NCBI GenBank assembly: GCA_003246765.1
Contig: QKDA01000168.1
Location: 1-45,837, forward strand
Source: Spirochaetales bacterium
Lineage (GTDB): Bacteria > Spirochaetota > Spirochaetia > Treponematales > Treponemataceae
Direction of reading: 5' to 3'
Length of the DNA stretch: 45,837 nucleotides
Shown piece after piece: positions 1-8,349 of the stretch. The position numbers and the translations under genes are program-made. Numbering within the stretch: position 1 is the stretch's first letter; every line of letters begins with the position of its first letter. The notes under the pieces are model-generated. The model was not told where the DNA came from, did no database searches, and saw only the letters and a program-made list of their open reading frames with translations.

Positions 1-929
1 TGCGAAGCCCGTATCCCAGAGGGTCTTGAAGTCCCCCTCGTCGATGCGGCCCTCGTAGTATTCCGGGCCGTTGTTGTTGCAGCCGCTTACGGTGCCGTCC
101 GAGAGTATCGAGGCGATGTTGATGCCGGAGCGGCAGAAGTAGGGGGTGTCCCGCAGCCCGCGGTCCAGGGCGAAGGGGAGGTAGCCCTCGCAGGAAAAGG
201 AGACCTCCAGGCCCCGCCTCTTCAGCTCGGGGCGCCTTTCCTTCAGCCACCGGAGCAGGGTTTTCAGCTCCTCCGGTTCAAGCCGAAGGTTGGGGTTTTC
301 CGCCCCCCGCCCCTTGGGGAAGATGCGGAAGAGGCGCCAGGAGGTAATGCCCTTTTCGATGAGCCTTTCCGCGACGTCGTCAAGATCGTGAAGGTTTCCC
401 CTCTCCCCGCCGAAGACGCAGGTGACGCAGTCCTTCACCGAGAGGCCGCGATTATATCCGCGGCCTTCAGGACCGCCTCGTAGGACCGGGGATTGTTCCT
501 CAGGTAGTTATGGGCCTTATCGTTTCCGTCGATGGAGAGGGTGATGCTGCCAAGGCCGTTTTGCTCGAGGGTATCCATGAGCTCCTGGCTGAGGGCGAGG
601 CCGTTGGTTACCATTCCCCAGTTAAGCCCTTCCCCATGGATGGCCCGGGCGATCTCGGGAAGGTCCTTTCGTACCGTGGGCTCTCCCCCGGTCACCACGA
701 TGAAGGGCCTCGGGCTGAAGCGCCCGCTCACGTAGCGGGCGATGCGGGCCCAGGTTTCCGCGTCCATTTCCCTCATGCGGGAATCCTTGCCGCAGTCGGA
801 GCCGCAGTGGACGCAGTTCATGTTGCAGCGGCGGGTTATCTCGAAGAAGAGGTAGAGGAGCCGGTGCTCCCGGGTCTCCATGGCCCTATACAAATCATGG
901 GCCTTCTTTTGCAGGATGAGGGGAAGCAC
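1..929 (-). pseudogene. Radical SAM/SPASM-like enzyme of an rSAM/lipoprotein pair; frameshifted, 3' end beyond window
   Basis: The first 164 codons start at a GTG (927-929) with GGAGG six bases upstream. They carry the radical SAM cluster motif CNMNCVHC (CxxxCxxC), then GGEPTVRKDL and the SIDG strand. The frame stops at 435-437. A different minus-strand frame continues the fold without stops to the window edge, reading SVKDCVTCVFGGERG, an LFRIFPKGRG stretch, and YFCRSGIN...ILSDGTVSGCNNNG, which is the layout of a SPASM-like auxiliary cluster region. Adding one base near 440-447 restores one continuous protein, so this is one gene with a one-base deletion or a sequencing error. The enzyme would use SAM radical chemistry to modify a peptide or protein. 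The preceding lipoprotein gene, 22 bases upstream in the same direction, is the obvious substrate candidate. Family assignment is from memory of the TIGRFAM rSAM/lipoprotein system; the substrate link is inference. Confidence 0.8.
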
Positions 930-951
930 GGGTATCCTCCGGATTCCGGTT

Positions 952-1368
952 TTAAGGGGTGTCGGTTTTTTCTTCCAGTACCGCGTCGAGCTCGTACGTT
1001 TCGGGGGGTATGTCGACGGCCTTGCTCTGGAAGTCCCCGCCGTTATCCGGCCCGTCGGTGTCGTCGAGGCCCAGAAGCTCCCCGGCGCTCACATCGTAGT
1101 CCAACAGCAGTTCCCCCGCCGAGTCGGTGTTTCCAAGGACGCTCGGGTCTCCGCTGTAGGGAATAAAGCTCACCCGTATGCCCTCGATGGGCTCGCCCAT
1201 GACGTTTTTTACCCGGAGGCTTAAGGTTCGCCAGTAGTCGTCCGGCGGGGCGCCGTACATGGCCACGGGAGAGCCGTACATCGCCGCGGGGGTTCCGTAG
1301 CACGCGGCGAGCATCATGGAAACCGCCCCGGTGGCGGCGATCCGGAAGACTTTTGATAACGTATTCAT
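952..1368 (-). CDS. Putative lipoprotein, partner of the adjacent radical SAM enzyme
   Basis: This is a 138-residue exported protein. A short hydrophobic signal ends in a lipobox, Leu20-Ala-Ala-Cys23, so the mature protein should be lipid-anchored. Directly after Cys23 come three YG-x-P motifs spaced exactly seven residues apart (YGTP at 24, YGSP at 31, YGAP at 38). A small beta-rich domain follows, with a 'GEPIEGIRVSF' stretch typical of carboxypeptidase-regulatory-like folds, and an acidic Asp/Gly-rich tail. It is the first gene of a two-gene unit with the radical SAM enzyme, a pairing known from Bacteroidetes and spirochaetes. I chose the ATG at 1366-1368 because a TTGCTT-N17-TACAAT promoter ends seven bases before it; an in-frame ATG at 1375-1377 lies inside that -10 box. 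A modification of the YGxP region is plausible but unproven. Confidence 0.8.
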   Translation of the reverse strand: MNTLSKVFRIAATGAVSMMLAACYGTPAAMYGSPVAMYGAPPDDYWRTLSLRVKNVMGEPIEGIRVSFIPYSGDPSVLGNTDSAGELLLDYDVSAGELLGLDDTDGPDNGGDFQSKAVDIPPETYELDAVLEEKTDTP

Positions 1369-1375
1369 TTGCCTC

Positions 1376-1404
1376 ATTGTAGTCCCGCTCCGGGGGGAAA
1401 GCAA
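1376..1404 (-). promoter_or_regulatory. Sigma70-like promoter of the lipoprotein/radical SAM unit
   Basis: On the minus strand TTGCTT (1404-1399) and TACAAT (1381-1376) are separated by 17 bases. Seven bases then separate the -10 box from the ATG at 1368, so transcription should begin at or within a base or two of the start codon. This would give a leaderless mRNA. Confidence 0.55.
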
Positions 1405-1549: not shown

Positions 1550-3598
1550 ATGAATCTGGACAAAATGCGCAATATAGGAATCATGGCCCATATCGACGCC
1601 GGCAAGACCACCACTACCGAGCGTATTCTCTTTTATACCGGAAAAATACACCGCATCGGCGAGATCGACGACGGCATGGCGACCATGGACTGGATGGCCC
1701 AGGAACAGGAACGGGGCATCACCATCCAGAGCGCGGCCACCACCACCTTTTGGCGGGACCACCAGATCAACGTCATCGACACCCCCGGCCACGTGGACTT
1801 CACCGCCGAGGTGGAGCGCTCCCTCAGGGTCCTCGACGGGGCCGTGGCGGTGCTTTGCGCGGTCGGCGGGGTTCAGCCCCAGACCGAGACGGTGTGGCGC
1901 CAGGCGGACCAGTACAAGGTTCCCCGGCTGTGCTTCGTGAACAAGATGGACCGGGTAGGGGCGGACTTTTTCCGCGCCATGGAAGACGTTTCGGGGAAAT
2001 TCGGCGCCAGCTGCGTGGCCCTGCAAATTCCGGTCGGCCAGGGCGCCGACTTCGAGGGGGTCATCGACCTCGTGGGCATGAAGGAGATCCGCTGGGACGC
2101 CGCTTCCGAGGGGGAGAAGATGGAGGTGACCGAGATCGATCCCTCCCGCGCCGCCGAGGCCTCCCAGTGGCGGGAACGGCTCATCGACGCCCTTTCCTCC
2201 CGCTCCGACGAGATCATGGAACTGGCCCTCGAGGGAGAGGAGATCCCGGAGGCGCTCCTGCGCCGGGAAATCCGCTCGGGAACCCTTGCCCGGGAGTTCA
2301 TTCCCTTCCTCTGCGGCGCCTCCCGGCGAAATTTGGGAATTCAGCCCCTCATTGACGGCATTATCGACTACCTTCCCGCCCCCCACGAGGTTCCCCCGGC
2401 GGCGGGCTTTCACGCCAAGAAGGAAGAGGAGGTCGCCGTGCCCTGCGAGGCTTCGGGGGTTCCCCTGGGGCTCGTCTTCAAGATCCAGTACGACCGCGAG
2501 GCGGGGGCCCTGTGCTACGTGCGCATGTACTCAGGCAAGATCAAGACCGGCGACCAGATCTTCAACGTGGGAAAGAAAAAGCGGGAGCGGGTCAACCGTA
2601 TTCTCCGCATGCACTCGAACAAGTCCGAGCCCATGGATTCCGTGGAGGCCGGGGACATCGCGGTCTTCATCGGCCTCAAGCTTGCCCAGACCGGCGACAC
2701 CGTGGGCTCCGAGGGCATGCCGATCCTCCTGGAGAAGATGCACTTCCCCGAGCCGGTGATCTCCGTGTCCATCGAGCCCAAGACCCTCTCCGAGCGGGAC
2801 CGCCTCAAGGAAACCCTGGACATCCTCTCCCGGGAAGACCCCACCTTCACGAGCCGGGAAGACGCGGAAACGGGACAGCTCATCATCTCCGGGATGGGGG
2901 AGCTCCACATCGACGTGCTCGTCACCCGCATGATAGACGACTTCAAGGTGGAAGCCCGGGTGGGAAACCCCCAGGTCACCTACCGGGAATCCATCACCGC
3001 CTCGGCGGAGCATTCCGAGACCTTTTCCAAGGTTCTCGGGGGCAAGGAAAACACCGCCGGGGTCACCCTGCGGGTGGAGCAGCTTCCCCGGGGCTCCGGC
3101 AACCGCTACGTCAACGCCGTCAAGAAGAGCGCCGCCCCGGAGGAGATCTTCGACGCGGTGGAGCAGGCGGTCACCAGCGCCTTCGGCTCGGGCATCCAGT
3201 ACGGCTATCCCTGCGTGGACGTGGGGGTCACCCTCACCGCGATCGACTGGAACGAGCTCACCTCCACCACCTTCGCCTTTGAGGCGGCGGCGAGCCACGG
3301 CTTCGACGAGGCCTGCCGCAAGGCCAGCCCGGAGCTCCTGGAGCCGGTGATGAACGTGGATATCCTGTGCCCCAAGGACTTCGTGGGCGACGCCATGAGC
3401 CAGGTTACCCAGCGGGGAGGGCTCATCTCGAGCCTCGAGTCCAAGCCCTCCATCGAGGTGGTGCACGCCCAGGCCCCCATGGCCAAGATGTTCGGCTTCT
3501 CTACCTCCCTGCGCTCGGTTACCCAGGGCCGGGCCTCCTTCGCCATGACCTTCAGCCACTACGAGGTAAAGCCCGGCGGGCTTTCAAACTACCGCTAA
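1550..3598 (+). CDS. fusA: Elongation factor G (translocase GTPase)
   Basis: The 682-residue protein is a full-length EF-G. The GTP-binding motifs are in order: AHIDAGKTTTTE (P-loop, near residue 13), the switch I segment ending in RGITI, DTPGHVDF, and NKMDR. The beta-barrel domain II, the domain III signature GMGELHIDV, the domain IV region and the C-terminal ferredoxin-like domain follow. EF-G drives GTP-dependent translocation of tRNA and mRNA on the ribosome, or ribosome recycling with RRF. Spirochaetes commonly carry two EF-G paralogues with split duties; which one this is cannot be decided from the sequence alone, so the symbol is provisional. The ATG at 1550 has AGGAG eight bases upstream. 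A strong terminator follows, so the gene appears to be transcribed alone. Confidence 0.95.
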   Translation: MNLDKMRNIGIMAHIDAGKTTTTERILFYTGKIHRIGEIDDGMATMDWMAQEQERGITIQSAATTTFWRDHQINVIDTPGHVDFTAEVERSLRVLDGAVAVLCAVGGVQPQTETVWRQADQYKVPRLCFVNKMDRVGADFFRAMEDVSGKFGASCVALQIPVGQGADFEGVIDLVGMKEIRWDAASEGEKMEVTEIDPSRAAEASQWRERLIDALSSRSDEIMELALEGEEIPEALLRREIRSGTLAREFIPFLCGASRRNLGIQPLIDGIIDYLPAPHEVPPAAGFHAKKEEEVAVPCEASGVPLGLVFKIQYDREAGALCYVRMYSGKIKTGDQIFNVGKKKRERVNRILRMHSNKSEPMDSVEAGDIAVFIGLKLAQTGDTVGSEGMPILLEKMHFPEPVISVSIEPKTLSERDRLKETLDILSREDPTFTSREDAETGQLIISGMGELHIDVLVTRMIDDFKVEARVGNPQVTYRESITASAEHSETFSKVLGGKENTAGVTLRVEQLPRGSGNRYVNAVKKSAAPEEIFDAVEQAVTSAFGSGIQYGYPCVDVGVTLTAIDWNELTSTTFAFEAAASHGFDEACRKASPELLEPVMNVDILCPKDFVGDAMSQVTQRGGLISSLESKPSIEVVHAQAPMAKMFGFSTSLRSVTQGRASFAMTFSHYEVKPGGLSNYR

Positions 3599-3682: not shown

Positions 3683-4264
3683 ATGAAAACCGCCGGAATA
3701 ACAATAATCCTTTCGTCGATTCTGACCTGCGCCTGCGCGGTTTTCATGGCCGCCCGGGGCGCCGCGTCCTTCCCCGTGATTCTCGCTCTCTTCCTCTCCG
3801 GATGCTCGGGCCTCGCCGCGTCCTTCCTCCTGGAATCCCGCAGGCGGGAGCTTTCGAGGGTCTTGGCCGCCGCGGGCAGGATCGACCTGTCCCTGGCGAG
3901 CGGGATCGTTTCCGCGGTCCCCGACGAGACGGGCAAGGCCGTCATGCGTGCCCTGGCGGACCTGGAAACCCTGAGGCTCCCGGATTCGGGACCTTCGGGC
4001 TCCGGCGGGCAAGTTTCCCAGGCGGAGACGGCGGACCGGATTCTCGAGGCCATGCAGTTTCAGGATTCCGAGCGGCAGGCCCTGGAAGGAGCCCTCTGGA
4101 TCATCGACGCTGTCCGGGAAAATCTCGACGCCGCGTGCCGGAAGGACCTTCCCAGGGTCGACGAGAAGTGGCTTCAGGATACCTTCGCAAACCTCCGGGA
4201 GGAGCTGCTCCCCCGGGTGAAAACCAAGATCGAAAAACAGGCTGTAATGGAGGCGCGCATATGA
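3683..4264 (+). CDS. Two-TM membrane protein with a CheZ-like FQD motif
   Basis: The 193-residue protein has two hydrophobic segments (about 5-24 and 30-50) that should anchor it in the inner membrane as a tight hairpin, then a cytoplasmic helical region. Residues 124-137 read MQFQDSERQALEGA. E. coli CheZ uses an FQD-x-x-x-Q segment (Asp143, Gln147) to dephosphorylate CheY-P, and the same Asp-to-Gln spacing occurs here (Asp128, Gln132). The gene is upstream of and overlaps a single-domain CheY by ATGA (4261-4264), so the two are probably translated together. A membrane-bound CheY-P phosphatase or docking protein is my inference. The FQD motif also occurs in other helical signalling proteins, and overall similarity to CheZ is not obvious. 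Transcript start and start codon nearly coincide. Confidence 0.6.
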   Translation: MKTAGITIILSSILTCACAVFMAARGAASFPVILALFLSGCSGLAASFLLESRRRELSRVLAAAGRIDLSLASGIVSAVPDETGKAVMRALADLETLRLPDSGPSGSGGQVSQAETADRILEAMQFQDSERQALEGALWIIDAVRENLDAACRKDLPRVDEKWLQDTFANLREELLPRVKTKIEKQAVMEARI

Positions 4265-4617
4265 ACTTTCTCTCGGTGGACGATTCCTCAACCATGCGGA
4301 AGATTATCTCCCTGGCCCTTAAAGGGGCGGGACATACGGTGGTGGAGGCGGAAAACGGAAAGCAGGCCCTGGAAACCCTCAAGACCGCTAAGGTGGACTG
4401 CATCCTGCTGGACATAAACATGCCCGAAATGAACGGGATCGAGTTCCTGAAGGCCCGAAAGTCGGACCCTTCCATCGCGTCCCTTCCCGTCTTCGTCCTG
4501 ACTACCCAGGACGAGGAGTCCCTCAAGGCGGAGGCCATGTCCCTCGGGGCGAAGGGCTTCATCGTTAAGCCCTTTCAGAAAGAGGCGCTCCTGTCGGCGA
4601 TCAGTAGCGGTATCTGA
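4261..4617 (+). CDS. Single-domain response regulator, CheY-like
   Basis: The 118-residue receiver domain has no output domain. The acidic pair Asp7-Asp8, the phosphoacceptor Asp51 (LLDINMPEMNG), Thr81/Thr82 and Lys103 (VKPF) match the CheY active site. GGAGG lies seven bases before the ATG. The start overlaps the stop of the FQD-motif membrane protein, which suggests that protein acts on this receiver. The 3' end overlaps the 3' end of the oppositely transcribed cheX by 17 bases. It is distinct from the cheY in the main operon (5089-5472). Likely roles are flagellar motor binding or a phosphate sink; the sequence does not say which. Confidence 0.9.
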   Translation: MNFLSVDDSSTMRKIISLALKGAGHTVVEAENGKQALETLKTAKVDCILLDINMPEMNGIEFLKARKSDPSIASLPVFVLTTQDEESLKAEAMSLGAKGFIVKPFQKEALLSAISSGI

Positions 4618-5092
4618 CGGAATAGAGGGAAAGGCCGAAAGCGCACCCCTCGGCGTCGAGCCGGAGGTCAGCCACGGCCGTTCCCGGCAGCTCCTCGTCG
4701 AGGTAGAGGCACCGGGGCAGCGCGAGCTGCACCTCCGTGCCCGAGCCGAAATAGGAAGCGAGGAACGTGCCCGCGATGACGTTGAGCATCTCGAGGATCG
4801 AGTCCTCGGCGTTTTTTTTCTTTTCCTGCTCCGGGCTCTCGCTGAACAGAATGTCCACGATGCGCTCGCGCAGGGATTCCGGAAAGCGGAGCTCGATTCT
4901 GCAGGAGAGGGGGGAGAGGACGTCTATGGCGGCGCAGGTGGTTTCTCCCGCGCCGCTTTCCCCCTTCGCCGCGCCCTCATCCCCGTTTTCCTGGTCCTCG
5001 GCGACGTCGATGAAGGCCATGTCGGCGAATACCGACGAGGCCGCTTCCGCAAGGAGTCTTGCGGATCGGTCGGGATCGAGCTGTACGTTCAT
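4601..5092 (-). CDS. cheX: CheX-type CheY-P phosphatase
   Basis: The 163-residue protein carries the CheC/CheX/FliY active-site signature: Asp97-x3-Glu101-x2-Asn104, with a proline 22 residues later (Pro126). CheX dephosphorylates CheY-P and is the usual phosphatase of spirochaete chemotaxis. An acidic, Gly/Glu-rich insert (about 32-50) looks like a flexible loop. The ATG at 5092 overlaps the cheY stop by ATGA and has GGAGG about six bases upstream. It is the last gene of the long leftward operon, and no terminator follows; instead its 3' end overlaps the convergent cheY-like gene at 4601-4617. Confidence 0.85.
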   Translation of the reverse strand: MNVQLDPDRSARLLAEAASSVFADMAFIDVAEDQENGDEGAAKGESGAGETTCAAIDVLSPLSCRIELRFPESLRERIVDILFSESPEQEKKKNAEDSILEMLNVIAGTFLASYFGSGTEVQLALPRCLYLDEELPGTAVADLRLDAEGCAFGLSLYSVRYRY

Positions 5093-5472
5093 TCCTCACC
5101 TCCCAAGGCCTGAATTACCTTCTCCGGGGTCACCGGTTTTTGAATGACCCCCATAACGCCCAGCTTCCTCATCTCCGGTTCTATGGAGCTCGCGGCTATG
5201 CTTGACGTGACTACCACGGGAATGTCCCTGGTGGAGGGCCGGTTTTTCACGAGCTTTATGAAGGTGCTTCCGTCCATTTTCGGCATGTTGATGTCGGAGA
5301 AGACCAGGTCGATGCCGTTCTCCCCGTCCGAGAGGAGGGTCAGGGCGTCAATGCCGTTCTCGGCCTCCAGGAAACGGGTCACTTCCAGGCCGCACATCTC
5401 GACGCAGCGCTGGATAATCATGCGAGAGGTCGCGGAGTCGTCCACGATCAGTACGGACCTAACTTTTTTCAC
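5089..5472 (-). CDS. cheY: Chemotaxis response regulator CheY
   Basis: The 127-residue single receiver domain has Asp11-Asp12, the phosphoacceptor Asp60 in FSDINMPKMDG, and Lys112 in QKPVTPEK. It should accept phosphate from CheA and bind the flagellar switch, with CheX next door removing it. The start is a GTG (5470-5472) with GGGAG nine bases upstream; no better start exists. It lies three bases after the cheD stop and overlaps cheX by four bases. Confidence 0.88.
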   Translation of the reverse strand: MKKVRSVLIVDDSATSRMIIQRCVEMCGLEVTRFLEAENGIDALTLLSDGENGIDLVFSDINMPKMDGSTFIKLVKNRPSTRDIPVVVTSSIAASSIEPEMRKLGVMGVIQKPVTPEKVIQALGGEE

Positions 5473-5475
5473 GGC

Positions 5476-5955
5476 TCAAATCTCCCATTGCCTGTCTCCG
5501 GAGGTGATGGTCGTATCCCCGGTGCCGACCGCGAGGGTCACGGTCCTGCTGATGTCGCCCCCGGTGTCCTCGGCGATCGCCCCGAGGGAGCTTTTCCAGA
5601 GGATGCGCTTGGCCGCCAGCAGGTTCCTCTTCCCGATATCGAAGATGCCCTTGTCGTCCATGACCGCCGCACCGCCCACGAGCTTGATCCTTACGTTCTG
5701 CCTGACCGCGCCGAGCTTTTTCATGTCCTCGATCATGAGGGGAATTCCGAGGTCCGCGAAGTAACCCGGCCTCGCGCGCCCCTTGTCTGCGTCGATGGAA
5801 GAATCGGGCAGGGCGAAGTGAAGCATGCCCCCGAGGCGGAGCTTTACGTCGTACATGATGACGGCGATGCACGAACCGAGGGCGAAGGTCTTTATGCTGT
5901 CATCCCCCTCGGCGCAAACCACCCACTCGCCGATGCCTACCGTATGGACTGCGAT
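5476..5955 (-). CDS. cheD: Chemoreceptor glutamine deamidase CheD, apparent ATC start
   Basis: The family hallmarks are clear: VGIGEW near the N-terminus, ALGSCIAVIMYD with the catalytic Cys, MLHFALPDS with the catalytic His, and the KLVGGAAV strand. CheD deamidates receptor glutamines and in many species docks with CheC or CheX. No ATG, GTG or TTG lies in frame near the expected start. The only in-frame candidates are a GTG inside the conserved GIGEW region or one far upstream inside cheB. An ATC at 5953-5955 has a perfect AAGGAG six bases before it (5962-5967) and gives an N-terminus of the usual family length, so I place the start there (159 residues). Its 5' end overlaps cheB by 19 bases. 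A base error in this codon would also explain the sequence. Confidence 0.8.
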   Translation of the reverse strand: MAVHTVGIGEWVVCAEGDDSIKTFALGSCIAVIMYDVKLRLGGMLHFALPDSSIDADKGRARPGYFADLGIPLMIEDMKKLGAVRQNVRIKLVGGAAVMDDKGIFDIGKRNLLAAKRILWKSSLGAIAEDTGGDISRTVTLAVGTGDTTITSGDRQWEI

Positions 5956-7043
5956 AGCGCGCTCCTTTCGGCTTTCGCCGTTCCCGCCGCGCAGCTTGCG
6001 ATCAGGGTTGCCGTCATTTCCTCTATGGACAGGAGCCTCTCGGGGGCCCCCATCTTCCACGCCTCCCCGGGCATCCCGAACACCACGGAGCTTTCCTCGT
6101 TCTGGGCGAAGCACCGTCCGCCGGCGCCGCGAACCTTCAAGAGCCCCCGGGCCCCGTCGGCCCCCATTCCCGTAAGCAGCAGGGCCACGGCCTGATTCCC
6201 CGCCGACTCCGCCGCTGAATCGAAGAGCACGTCCACCGAGGGCCGGTGCCCGCTCACCTTGTCTCCGGGAGAACAGGAAACCTTCCATTGGACTCCGTGG
6301 CGAACCACCCGGAGGTGGAGGTCTCCCGGGGCCACGAGGACGAGCCCGCTCCGGAGCACGTCCCCGTCCTTTGCTTCGCGAACCTCCACGGCAGAGGTGC
6401 GGTCAAGGGTATCCGCGAACATGCGGGTGAAAACCGGGGGCATGTGCTGAACGATGACCGTCCCCGGCATGTCCAGGGGAAATTCCGGGATGATGCGGTT
6501 GAGCACTTGGGTGCCGCCGGTTGAGGCCCCTATGACGATGACCTTCCGGCTGCCCGTGAGGCCCGCGCCCGCGGGAGAGGGTTTTTGACCGGCCGCCGCC
6601 GCTTTGGGGACGGGGGTTCGGGCCTTGGAAACGTCCGCCCGGGAAGCCTCCCTAATCCGTTCCGAAAGCTGGACCAGCATGTGCTCCAGCCCCCGCTGAT
6701 CCCTTCCTTCGGGCTTCGCGACGATGTCGAGGGCTCCCGCCTCCAGGGCGGCCAGGGCCCGCTCCGATCCGCGGGGCGTCACCGCCGAAACGACCACTAC
6801 CGGGAGCGGGTACTGGGGCAGGAGCTTTTTAAGGAATTCAATGCCGTCCATCCTGGGCATCTCAATGTCCAGGGTGACCACGTCGGGATTAAGGAGGACT
6901 ATCTTGTCCCGGGCGGACCAGGCGTCGGAGGCGGTCCCGGCCACCTCGATGTCGGGGTAGCGGGAAAGCCCCTTGGTTATAAGTTCCCGGGCGACGGCGG
7001 AGTCGTCCACCACGAGAACCCGGATCTTCCCGGTTCCCTTCAT
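5937..7043 (-). CDS. cheB: Protein-glutamate methylesterase CheB
   Basis: The 368-residue protein has an N-terminal receiver domain (Asp12-Asp13-equivalent acidic pair, phosphoacceptor Asp59 in TLDIEMPRMDG), a Pro/Ala-rich linker (about 130-165) and a methylesterase domain. The catalytic triad residues are visible: Ser174 in IGASTGG, His200 in VQHMPP and Asp296 in TGMGADGA. It removes methyl groups from receptor glutamates when phosphorylated by CheA, opposing CheR for adaptation. Its start overlaps the stop of the preceding unknown gene by ATGA, and its end overlaps cheD. Confidence 0.95.
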   Translation of the reverse strand: MKGTGKIRVLVVDDSAVARELITKGLSRYPDIEVAGTASDAWSARDKIVLLNPDVVTLDIEMPRMDGIEFLKKLLPQYPLPVVVVSAVTPRGSERALAALEAGALDIVAKPEGRDQRGLEHMLVQLSERIREASRADVSKARTPVPKAAAAGQKPSPAGAGLTGSRKVIVIGASTGGTQVLNRIIPEFPLDMPGTVIVQHMPPVFTRMFADTLDRTSAVEVREAKDGDVLRSGLVLVAPGDLHLRVVRHGVQWKVSCSPGDKVSGHRPSVDVLFDSAAESAGNQAVALLLTGMGADGARGLLKVRGAGGRCFAQNEESSVVFGMPGEAWKMGAPERLLSIEEMTATLIASCAAGTAKAERSALSQSIR

Positions 7044-7585
7044 TCCGGTACCCTCTCCAGCCGCTTTACGTCCTGTCCGTCGGTAAACACCAGGATATCC
7101 CCGTCGAATTCCACGGATATGCCGATGGGCGCCGGATCAGGGGGCAGTTCCTGTATTACCGCGGGCTTGCCGTCCATGCTGATGTACTGGTAGCCGATGA
7201 GGGGCTGCACCGTGAGCCGCCTCTCCCGTATCCGCCAGGAGAGTACCACCGTGAGCCGGTATTCATAGACGCCCTTCGCGATTTCCGCGGAGACGAACAC
7301 CCTCTTGATGCAGTGGTGGCTTTGAAACTCGTAGGTGGACACGTAATCGAGGGAGGCCGGCCGCTCGTCGGGAAAGCGGTTGCGGGCATAGACCTCGGCG
7401 TAGGGCTCGCCGCCCACCTCATGGCTCACGATTCGCCAAAGGCCCTTCAGCTCGTGCCGCTCCGGGCTTTTAAGGGAGGCGGTATACTCGTAGCTTCCCG
7501 TCTCCGCCACCGGGGCTTCCCTGAGGCTTTGCCCAATGGCCCTCGCCATGTTCTGCAGCCGTTCGTCGCCTTTTCTCGCGTTCAT
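7040..7585 (-). CDS. Conserved-looking unknown protein inside the che operon
   Basis: I do not recognise this 181-residue protein. It has no signal peptide or membrane segment and reads as a soluble mixed alpha/beta protein with many paired charged residues; the middle (about 40-150) contains short beta-like stretches such as KRVFVSAEIA and YEYRLTVVLSWRI. The ATG at 7583-7585 overlaps the stop of the ParA-like gene, and its own stop overlaps the cheB start, both as ATGA. It is therefore locked between ParA-like ATPase and CheB translation, which suggests a role in receptor adaptation or array positioning. The longer upstream extension of the frame lies inside the ParA-like gene and was not used. 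Confidence 0.75.
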   Translation of the reverse strand: MNARKGDERLQNMARAIGQSLREAPVAETGSYEYTASLKSPERHELKGLWRIVSHEVGGEPYAEVYARNRFPDERPASLDYVSTYEFQSHHCIKRVFVSAEIAKGVYEYRLTVVLSWRIRERRLTVQPLIGYQYISMDGKPAVIQELPPDPAPIGISVEFDGDILVFTDGQDVKRLERVPE

Positions 7586-8349
7586 GGGCGCACCTGAAAG
7601 CCTTTGTCGATCAGGGTTCGGTAGTCCCGGGCGGCGTAGCTCGACGGGCCGCATTCCCAGATGGTCCTAGACTTTTCCAGGGACCGGGAAATGTACTCGG
7701 ACTTGCATATCTCGTACACGGGAATATGGAAACTGGAGAAAAGTTCCCGGTAGGTCTGTACCCGGTGGAGCCGGTTCTCGGCCTTCGTGAAAAGAAGGGA
7801 GTGCACGTGAATCTCCTTACCCGCCTCGGCGGAACAGGACTTTACCTCCTCGAGGATCGACTCCAGCCCGGACACGGAAAAGAGCTGGAATTCCAGGGGA
7901 ATGATTACGGCGTCGCTCGCCCGGATGAGAAGCCGCTCCAAGGGGCTGTTCGAGGGGGAGGAATCCATGATGATCCAGTCGTAGCGGCTCGTTAGGGAAC
8001 CGATGAAATCGGCGAAGGGCCCGTAGGCCCGTTCCACTTCGGTGTCGCGCATCTCAAGCCGCAGCCGCTTGTTTCCCGCCGGCAGCAGGTCGAGGTTCTT
8101 TCTCACCCGGGAATTGACGTAGGCCTCGGCCTTCGCGGGGCTCCCCGAGGCGAGGTCCGCCAGGAGCCGCGAAAAATCGAGTTTGTCCCGGGAGCCGAAA
8201 AAGAGGGTCAGGTTACCCTGGGGATCCCCGTCGACCATCAGGACCTTGTCGCCCCTTCGGGCGAGCCCCGAGGCCAGCTGAATGACTGACGAGGTTTTGC
8301 CCACGCCCCCCTTTTGATTCGCGACGGTGAAAATTTTCGCGCCGGTCAT
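7582..8349 (-). CDS. ParA/MinD-family ATPase in the chemotaxis operon
   Basis: The 255-residue protein opens with the deviant Walker A motif NQKGGVGKT (about residues 11-19), followed by VDGDPQGNLT and the Walker B-like WIIMDSSPS. Chromosomal ParA proteins segregate DNA, but no parB or parS lies beside this gene. Its overlap with cheR on one side and the unknown gene on the other resembles the ParC/ParP-type ATPases that position chemoreceptor arrays in other bacteria. That role is inferred from location. DNA binding or plasmid partition is unlikely here. Confidence 0.85.
   Translation of the reverse strand: MTGAKIFTVANQKGGVGKTSSVIQLASGLARRGDKVLMVDGDPQGNLTLFFGSRDKLDFSRLLADLASGSPAKAEAYVNSRVRKNLDLLPAGNKRLRLEMRDTEVERAYGPFADFIGSLTSRYDWIIMDSSPSNSPLERLLIRASDAVIIPLEFQLFSVSGLESILEEVKSCSAEAGKEIHVHSLLFTKAENRLHRVQTYRELFSSFHIPVYEICKSEYISRSLEKSRTIWECGPSSYAARDYRTLIDKGFQVRP

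Follow-up and report, generated by a model that had tools for sequence, protein, structure and literature searches.

A divergent radical SAM/lipoprotein gene pair from a spirochaete, with X-Tyr-Gly motifs as candidate sites of backbone splicing

To our knowledge, tyrosine-excising backbone splicing has to date been described in small natural-product peptides. XYG is the splice motif of the PlpX-type spliceases, with MYG and LYG as natural sites and PIRPLYGLPI among the splice tags tested (PMC10533398; PMC11002830; PMC10373908), and spliceotide ketoamides have been reported as protease inhibitors (PMC10373908, PMC11117315). Another group of radical SAM/SPASM enzymes is encoded next to lipoprotein genes, and this rSAM/lipoprotein pair is so far recognised by co-occurrence only. 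The corresponding NCBIfam entries, TIGR04133 or rSAM_w_lipo for the enzyme and TIGR04134 or lipo_with_rSAM for the lipoprotein, are without function and are both of the type 'hypoth_equivalog' (June 2026). Outside Scott et al. (2022, Chem 8:2659), which by its title deals with both peptides and proteins and may overlap in content, our search found no paper linking TIGR04133 with spliceases. The curated cut-offs are 425 bits for TIGR04133, 39.8 bits for TIGR04134 and 725 bits for the nif11-class maturase family TIGR04103.

We analyzed a pair of this kind in a 45,837-nt stretch of spirochaete DNA, hereafter the window. The window is an entire contig (C200) of a genome assembled in 273 contigs, and its position 1 is therefore a contig end. 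The features of the pair are as follows.

955..1368, minus strand: lipoprotein gene, 138 aa; ORF with lipobox and TIGR04134 match; an alternative upstream ATG at 1377 is possible
1303..1368, minus strand: signal peptide, residues 1-22, proposed leader for the enzyme, from the sequence and from conservation among relatives that is tied to enzyme presence
1288..1302, minus strand: XYG site 1, CYGTP, where X is the lipidated Cys23; Cys-Tyr-Gly is invariant in alignment A3
1267..1281, minus strand: XYG site 2, MYGSP, from the sequence
1246..1260, minus strand: XYG site 3, MYGAP, from the sequence
979..1233, minus strand: predicted transthyretin/CnaB-like beta-sandwich domain, residues 46-130, from an AlphaFold2 model and Foldseek
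435..929, minus strand: first fragment of the radical SAM gene, GTG start at 929 and TGA stop at 435-437; TIGR04133 positions 8-162, 158.4 bits; Pfam Radical_SAM 1.8e-21
804..827, minus strand: radical SAM cluster motif CNMNCVHC, then GSDC; CxxxCxxC present in the sequence
435..455, minus strand: frameshift zone between the enzyme fragments, biological or an assembly error, from the reading frames
1..438, minus strand: second fragment of the radical SAM gene, ending at the contig end with only the start of the SPASM domain; TIGR04133 positions 169-304, 119.2 bits

In agreement with the sequence-only reading, the lipoprotein and radical SAM genes are adjacent and run in the same direction, the CxxxCxxC ORF beginning 25 nt downstream of the 138-aa ORF, both on the minus strand. 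The export and lipidation signals described there were also found, the signal peptide being followed by the lipobox MMLAA↓C, and a spirochaete host is borne out by the enzyme of a genome in the window's family, which matches a Treponema saccharophilum sequence (L057, L185). The postulated single promoter was not recovered, as a search of the minus strand between 900 and 1600 gave no sigma-70-like site, but the short gap and the shared strand do fit an operon. What had been taken for a single enzyme gene is interrupted by a frameshift around 435-455, the continuation lying in a different frame from the first fragment, and is cut off by the contig end. The contig stops after the first SPASM cysteines, and the last ~45 of the 350 TIGR04133 profile positions are absent, including most SPASM cysteines; the radical SAM CxxxCxxC is intact. 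The missing C-terminus did not turn up in any other part of the assembly, and a match with an E-value of 0.41 was rejected as a candidate for it. Since GC3 is high in both enzyme fragments (0.83 and 0.87, compared with 0.88 in fusA), any decay would be recent. As the enzyme is both frameshifted and truncated, a working state of this copy cannot be assumed. Composition gave no sign that the pair is of foreign or contaminant origin (GC 62.2% versus 61.4% in the rest of the contig), and this possibility was rejected. Further along the window, a fusA-like gene (1550-3598) is followed by several chemotaxis-type ORFs (3683-7654), including response regulators and CheB- and CheD-like ORFs.

Searches with TIGR04133 and TIGR04134 matched both proteins, and the kind of system proposed earlier was right; the hits were, however, not the strong ones by which it was to be confirmed. 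The two enzyme fragments reach 158.4 and 119.2 of 425 bits, and the lipoprotein 25.7 of 39.8 bits (E 9.7e-6). Three intact near-relative enzymes from outside the window's family (47-50% identity) likewise score under the TIGR04133 cut-off, at 352-362 bits, and by these scores the window pair is a divergent sister of the TIGR04133/TIGR04134 system, not strictly inside either curated family. Among lipoprotein relatives, L067 (46.2 bits) and L070 (40.2 bits) pass the TIGR04134 cut-off and L068 (26.7 bits) falls below it; generic Ig-like matches in long ORFs (L026, L027, L029-L032) were not accepted as relatives. The window locus shares with the curated system its gene order, the combination of a lipoprotein with a radical SAM/SPASM enzyme, the CYG motif and a related beta-sandwich domain, and its intact relatives align over the full-length profile. 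It differs in that both window proteins and the near-relative enzymes lie under the cut-offs, in its triple XYGxP and in its frameshifted, truncated enzyme. Enzyme matches at E 1e-40 were obtained in 27 of 195 genomes of the window's family and in none of the 11 further genomes sampled from its genus, and no second copy was found in the window's own genome. The Treponema saccharophilum pair (L185:1746-4038) is located on plasmid pTS1 beside a Mpi-type serine recombinase, which fits this patchy distribution. In sum, the window locus is a divergent relative, broken locally, of a pair that is widespread and has no named function.

The AlphaFold2 model of the lipoprotein has a mean pLDDT of 80, with 74-97 per block of ten residues over the domain, and places the three XYG motifs in a low-confidence linker ahead of the beta-sandwich. 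The nearest structures in Foldseek were the N-terminal extension domain of a SusC transporter (9hfj, E 8e-5), CnaB2 and transthyretin-like proteins, and the modelled fold says little about function. Conserved residues within the domain are D103, D105, G106, N109 and G111. No further CYGxP lipoproteins were found in the genome, where two other DNA matches to the motif were not lipoproteins. In genomes G054 and G068, CYGMP lipoproteins (L033:1468-1857 and L034:628-1014) lie on contigs other than that of the genome's enzyme, so one enzyme may serve unlinked substrates.

In order to follow the motif across bacteria, 84,980 species genomes were scanned with HCGSDC as pattern, giving at least 573 confirmed relatives. 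The best 80 of these loci were read; they include Bacteroidota, Spirochaetota, Fibrobacterota, Myxococcota and Clostridium among others. In the best 80 of at least 573 loci, the partner lipoproteins vary in size and domain, and most carry X-Tyr-Gly, usually X-Tyr-Gly-x-Pro, soon after the lipidated Cys. YG occurs within 45 aa of the Cys in 69 of the 79 upstream lipoprotein-like ORFs (shuffle mean 16.3, maximum 26) and YGxP in 57 of the 79 (shuffle mean 1.3, maximum 6), compared with 12 and 2, respectively, of 101 other lipoprotein-like ORFs from the same loci; Tyr-Gly was picked after inspection of the data, and the effect is far larger than such a choice explains. Cys-Tyr-Gly stands directly at the lipid Cys in 36 cases among these upstream ORFs. 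Short partner lipoproteins without the domain keep the motif, as in Clostridium (CRGENKYGPPTSKYGPP) and Prevotellaceae (LYGPPVLYGPP). These patterns make it likely, with high confidence, that XYG is the modification site of the rSAM/lipoprotein class. At L094:583-1480, three short lipoprotein-like ORFs stand in a row before a divergent enzyme, with CCYAPSGD, CGGYAVYGPGPD and, in the third, CIYGPPEM.

The co-occurrence of enzyme and lipoprotein was analyzed in 195 genomes of the window's family by searching for the beta-sandwich domain without the motif. Lipoprotein and enzyme were found together in 23 genomes, the lipoprotein alone in three, the enzyme alone in four and neither in 165 (Fisher 9e-23). 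Of the lipoproteins from enzyme-bearing genomes, 27 were examined, and every one has XYG in its linker; 20 were scored by script, and the seven with a miscalled cysteine (including G128 and G173) or a longer linker were read by eye. None of the three lipoproteins from enzyme-less genomes has XYG there; one of them has a YG within its first strand, where it aligns to a structural position. Signal-peptide identity is 42% among enzyme-bearing pairs and 17% between enzyme-bearing and enzyme-less ones, at a domain identity of 38% in both comparisons, the enzyme-less cases numbering three and the relatives not being independent. The conservation of both site and signal peptide thus depends on the enzyme. 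That the signal peptide is conserved only among enzyme-bearing pairs suggests that the enzyme may read it as a leader, before export. The earlier proposal that modification takes place before or with export is consistent with this result, the timing itself being what we infer from it.

On a Nostoc plasmid, a TIGR04103 enzyme (853 bits) adjoins a Nif11 precursor ending in ALYGLPPELF, with a 71-aa protein alongside. Because of the Nif11 association, TIGR04103 is probably the PlpX family. In a maximum-likelihood tree, the lipoprotein enzymes and the XYG-linked TIGR04103 and TIGR03913 enzymes fall on one side of a branch with support of 98/95, relative to a limited sampling of outgroups (AhbD, NirJ, TIGR04053, TIGR04347 and MftC); PqqE was left out of the second tree because of its long branch. 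HCGS in the radical SAM motif occurs in 21/21 XYG-linked enzymes and in no outgroup, and counts only for enzymes found otherwise, since the 80-locus scan used the HCGSDC pattern. Against TIGR04103 itself the first window fragment scored 67.9 bits and its relatives 87-141 bits, under the cut-off of 725, and the AhbD, TIGR04053, NirJ and MftC profiles score similarly; the NCBIfam ranking was therefore rejected as proof of splicease kinship, being indecisive.

The lipoprotein pair resembles the PlpX-type/TIGR04103 systems in its XYG substrate, often XYGxP, in its HCGS radical SAM/SPASM enzyme and in its side of the tree. It differs in its substrate, a signal-peptide-bearing lipoprotein in place of a Nif11/NHLP-leader peptide. 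In addition, no PlpY-like third gene (a truncated RRE) was seen on the lipoprotein side of the window, the other side lying past the contig end, or by the annotated relatives L185 and L232, and the relatives' enzymes are without one Cys of the usual SPASM CX2CX5CX3C. The TIGR03913 GDL-motif/DUF1843 system likewise has an HCGS radical SAM/SPASM enzyme, and some of its DUF1843 partner peptides contain PYG; in contrast, these peptides are without a lipobox, some are without YG, and the enzyme has an extra C-terminal cysteine-rich part. In a myxobacterium, a TIGR04103-like enzyme frame (L177:1411-3111) continues with no stop into a lipoprotein-like stretch rich in cysteine that contains CDYGFVPP and CEYGVLPP, again XYG.

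The reading we favor, and consider reasonably probable, is that the enzyme is a lipoprotein splicease for which the signal peptide serves as leader and which removes tyramine before export. The cytosolic radical SAM/SPASM enzyme, in its intact form, would recognise the lipoprotein precursor through the signal peptide and act on the X-Tyr-Gly motifs in the linker just past the lipobox cysteine. As with PlpX-type spliceases, a tyramine equivalent (-C8H9NO, -135.068 Da per site) would be excised and the chain rejoined, after which the precursor would be exported and lipidated. An electrophilic ketoamide would then end up between the membrane anchor and the transthyretin/CnaB-like domain, where it may act as a tethered protease inhibitor, a role guessed by analogy from the inhibitory ketoamides of spliceotides. 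The sequence-only reading had regarded the modification as not established; this can now be sharpened, as the comparative evidence points to the XYG sites and, with moderate confidence, to a splicease-type reaction as the likely one of the class. Whether the whole rSAM/lipoprotein class, from spirochaetes, Bacteroidota and Fibrobacterota to Myxococcota and Clostridia, consists of lipoprotein spliceases we regard as evenly balanced.

The same XYG(xP) site could undergo another radical reaction without excision, such as oxidation, epimerisation or a cross-link between the Tyr side chain and a neighbouring residue. What the comparative data establish is the site and not the reaction, SPASM enzymes are chemically varied, and the MftC, NirJ and AhbD profiles score about equal to TIGR04103; the XYG triplet, including LYGLPP, is nevertheless common to splicease-type loci, and the lipoprotein enzymes group with enzymes of other XYG loci, which leaves a different chemistry rather unlikely. 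Lipoprotein sorting signals are located at +2/+3 relative to the lipid Cys. The motif occupies these positions, and conserved residues are present in the domain too (D103, D105, G106, N109, G111), so that XYG might serve only for docking or sorting and the enzyme might modify another residue or another molecule. We consider this very improbable, since the motif is kept in short partner lipoproteins without the domain, is sometimes far from the Cys and repeated, and is gone where the enzyme is absent.

A question specific to the window, and compatible with every other reading, is whether its enzyme is a true pseudogene, with a pair decaying in this lineage and a lipoprotein left unmodified. The in-frame stop and frame change, together with the lack of enzyme matches at E 1e-40 in the other 11 sampled genus genomes and of a detected second copy in the genome, speak for such decay. 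In both fragments, however, the conserved motifs and the high GC3 are retained, three XYGxP sites remain in the lipoprotein, and the break is less than 0.5 kb from a contig end, a place prone to assembly errors. We therefore hold true decay to be a serious possibility, though the less probable state of affairs.

If lipoprotein splicing by the intact enzymes is correct, peptide-backbone splicing would reach beyond natural-product peptides to proteins anchored in the membrane, among them those of gut and rumen bacteria, and a ketoamide acting in protease inhibition or capture in the cell envelope would be suggested. The XYG site, the loss of 135.068 Da per site and the idea of the signal peptide as leader make the function of the pair testable. 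The smallest natural substrate candidate seen is from Clostridium bovifaecis (L173:4739-4951), a mature partner lipoprotein of barely more than two KYGPP motifs. In the gut bacterium Agathobacter rectalis, a plasmid (L184) carries a small unannotated ORF ending in PVMYGTGVRM just before a TIGR04103-like rSAM gene at 2986, a candidate spliced peptide.
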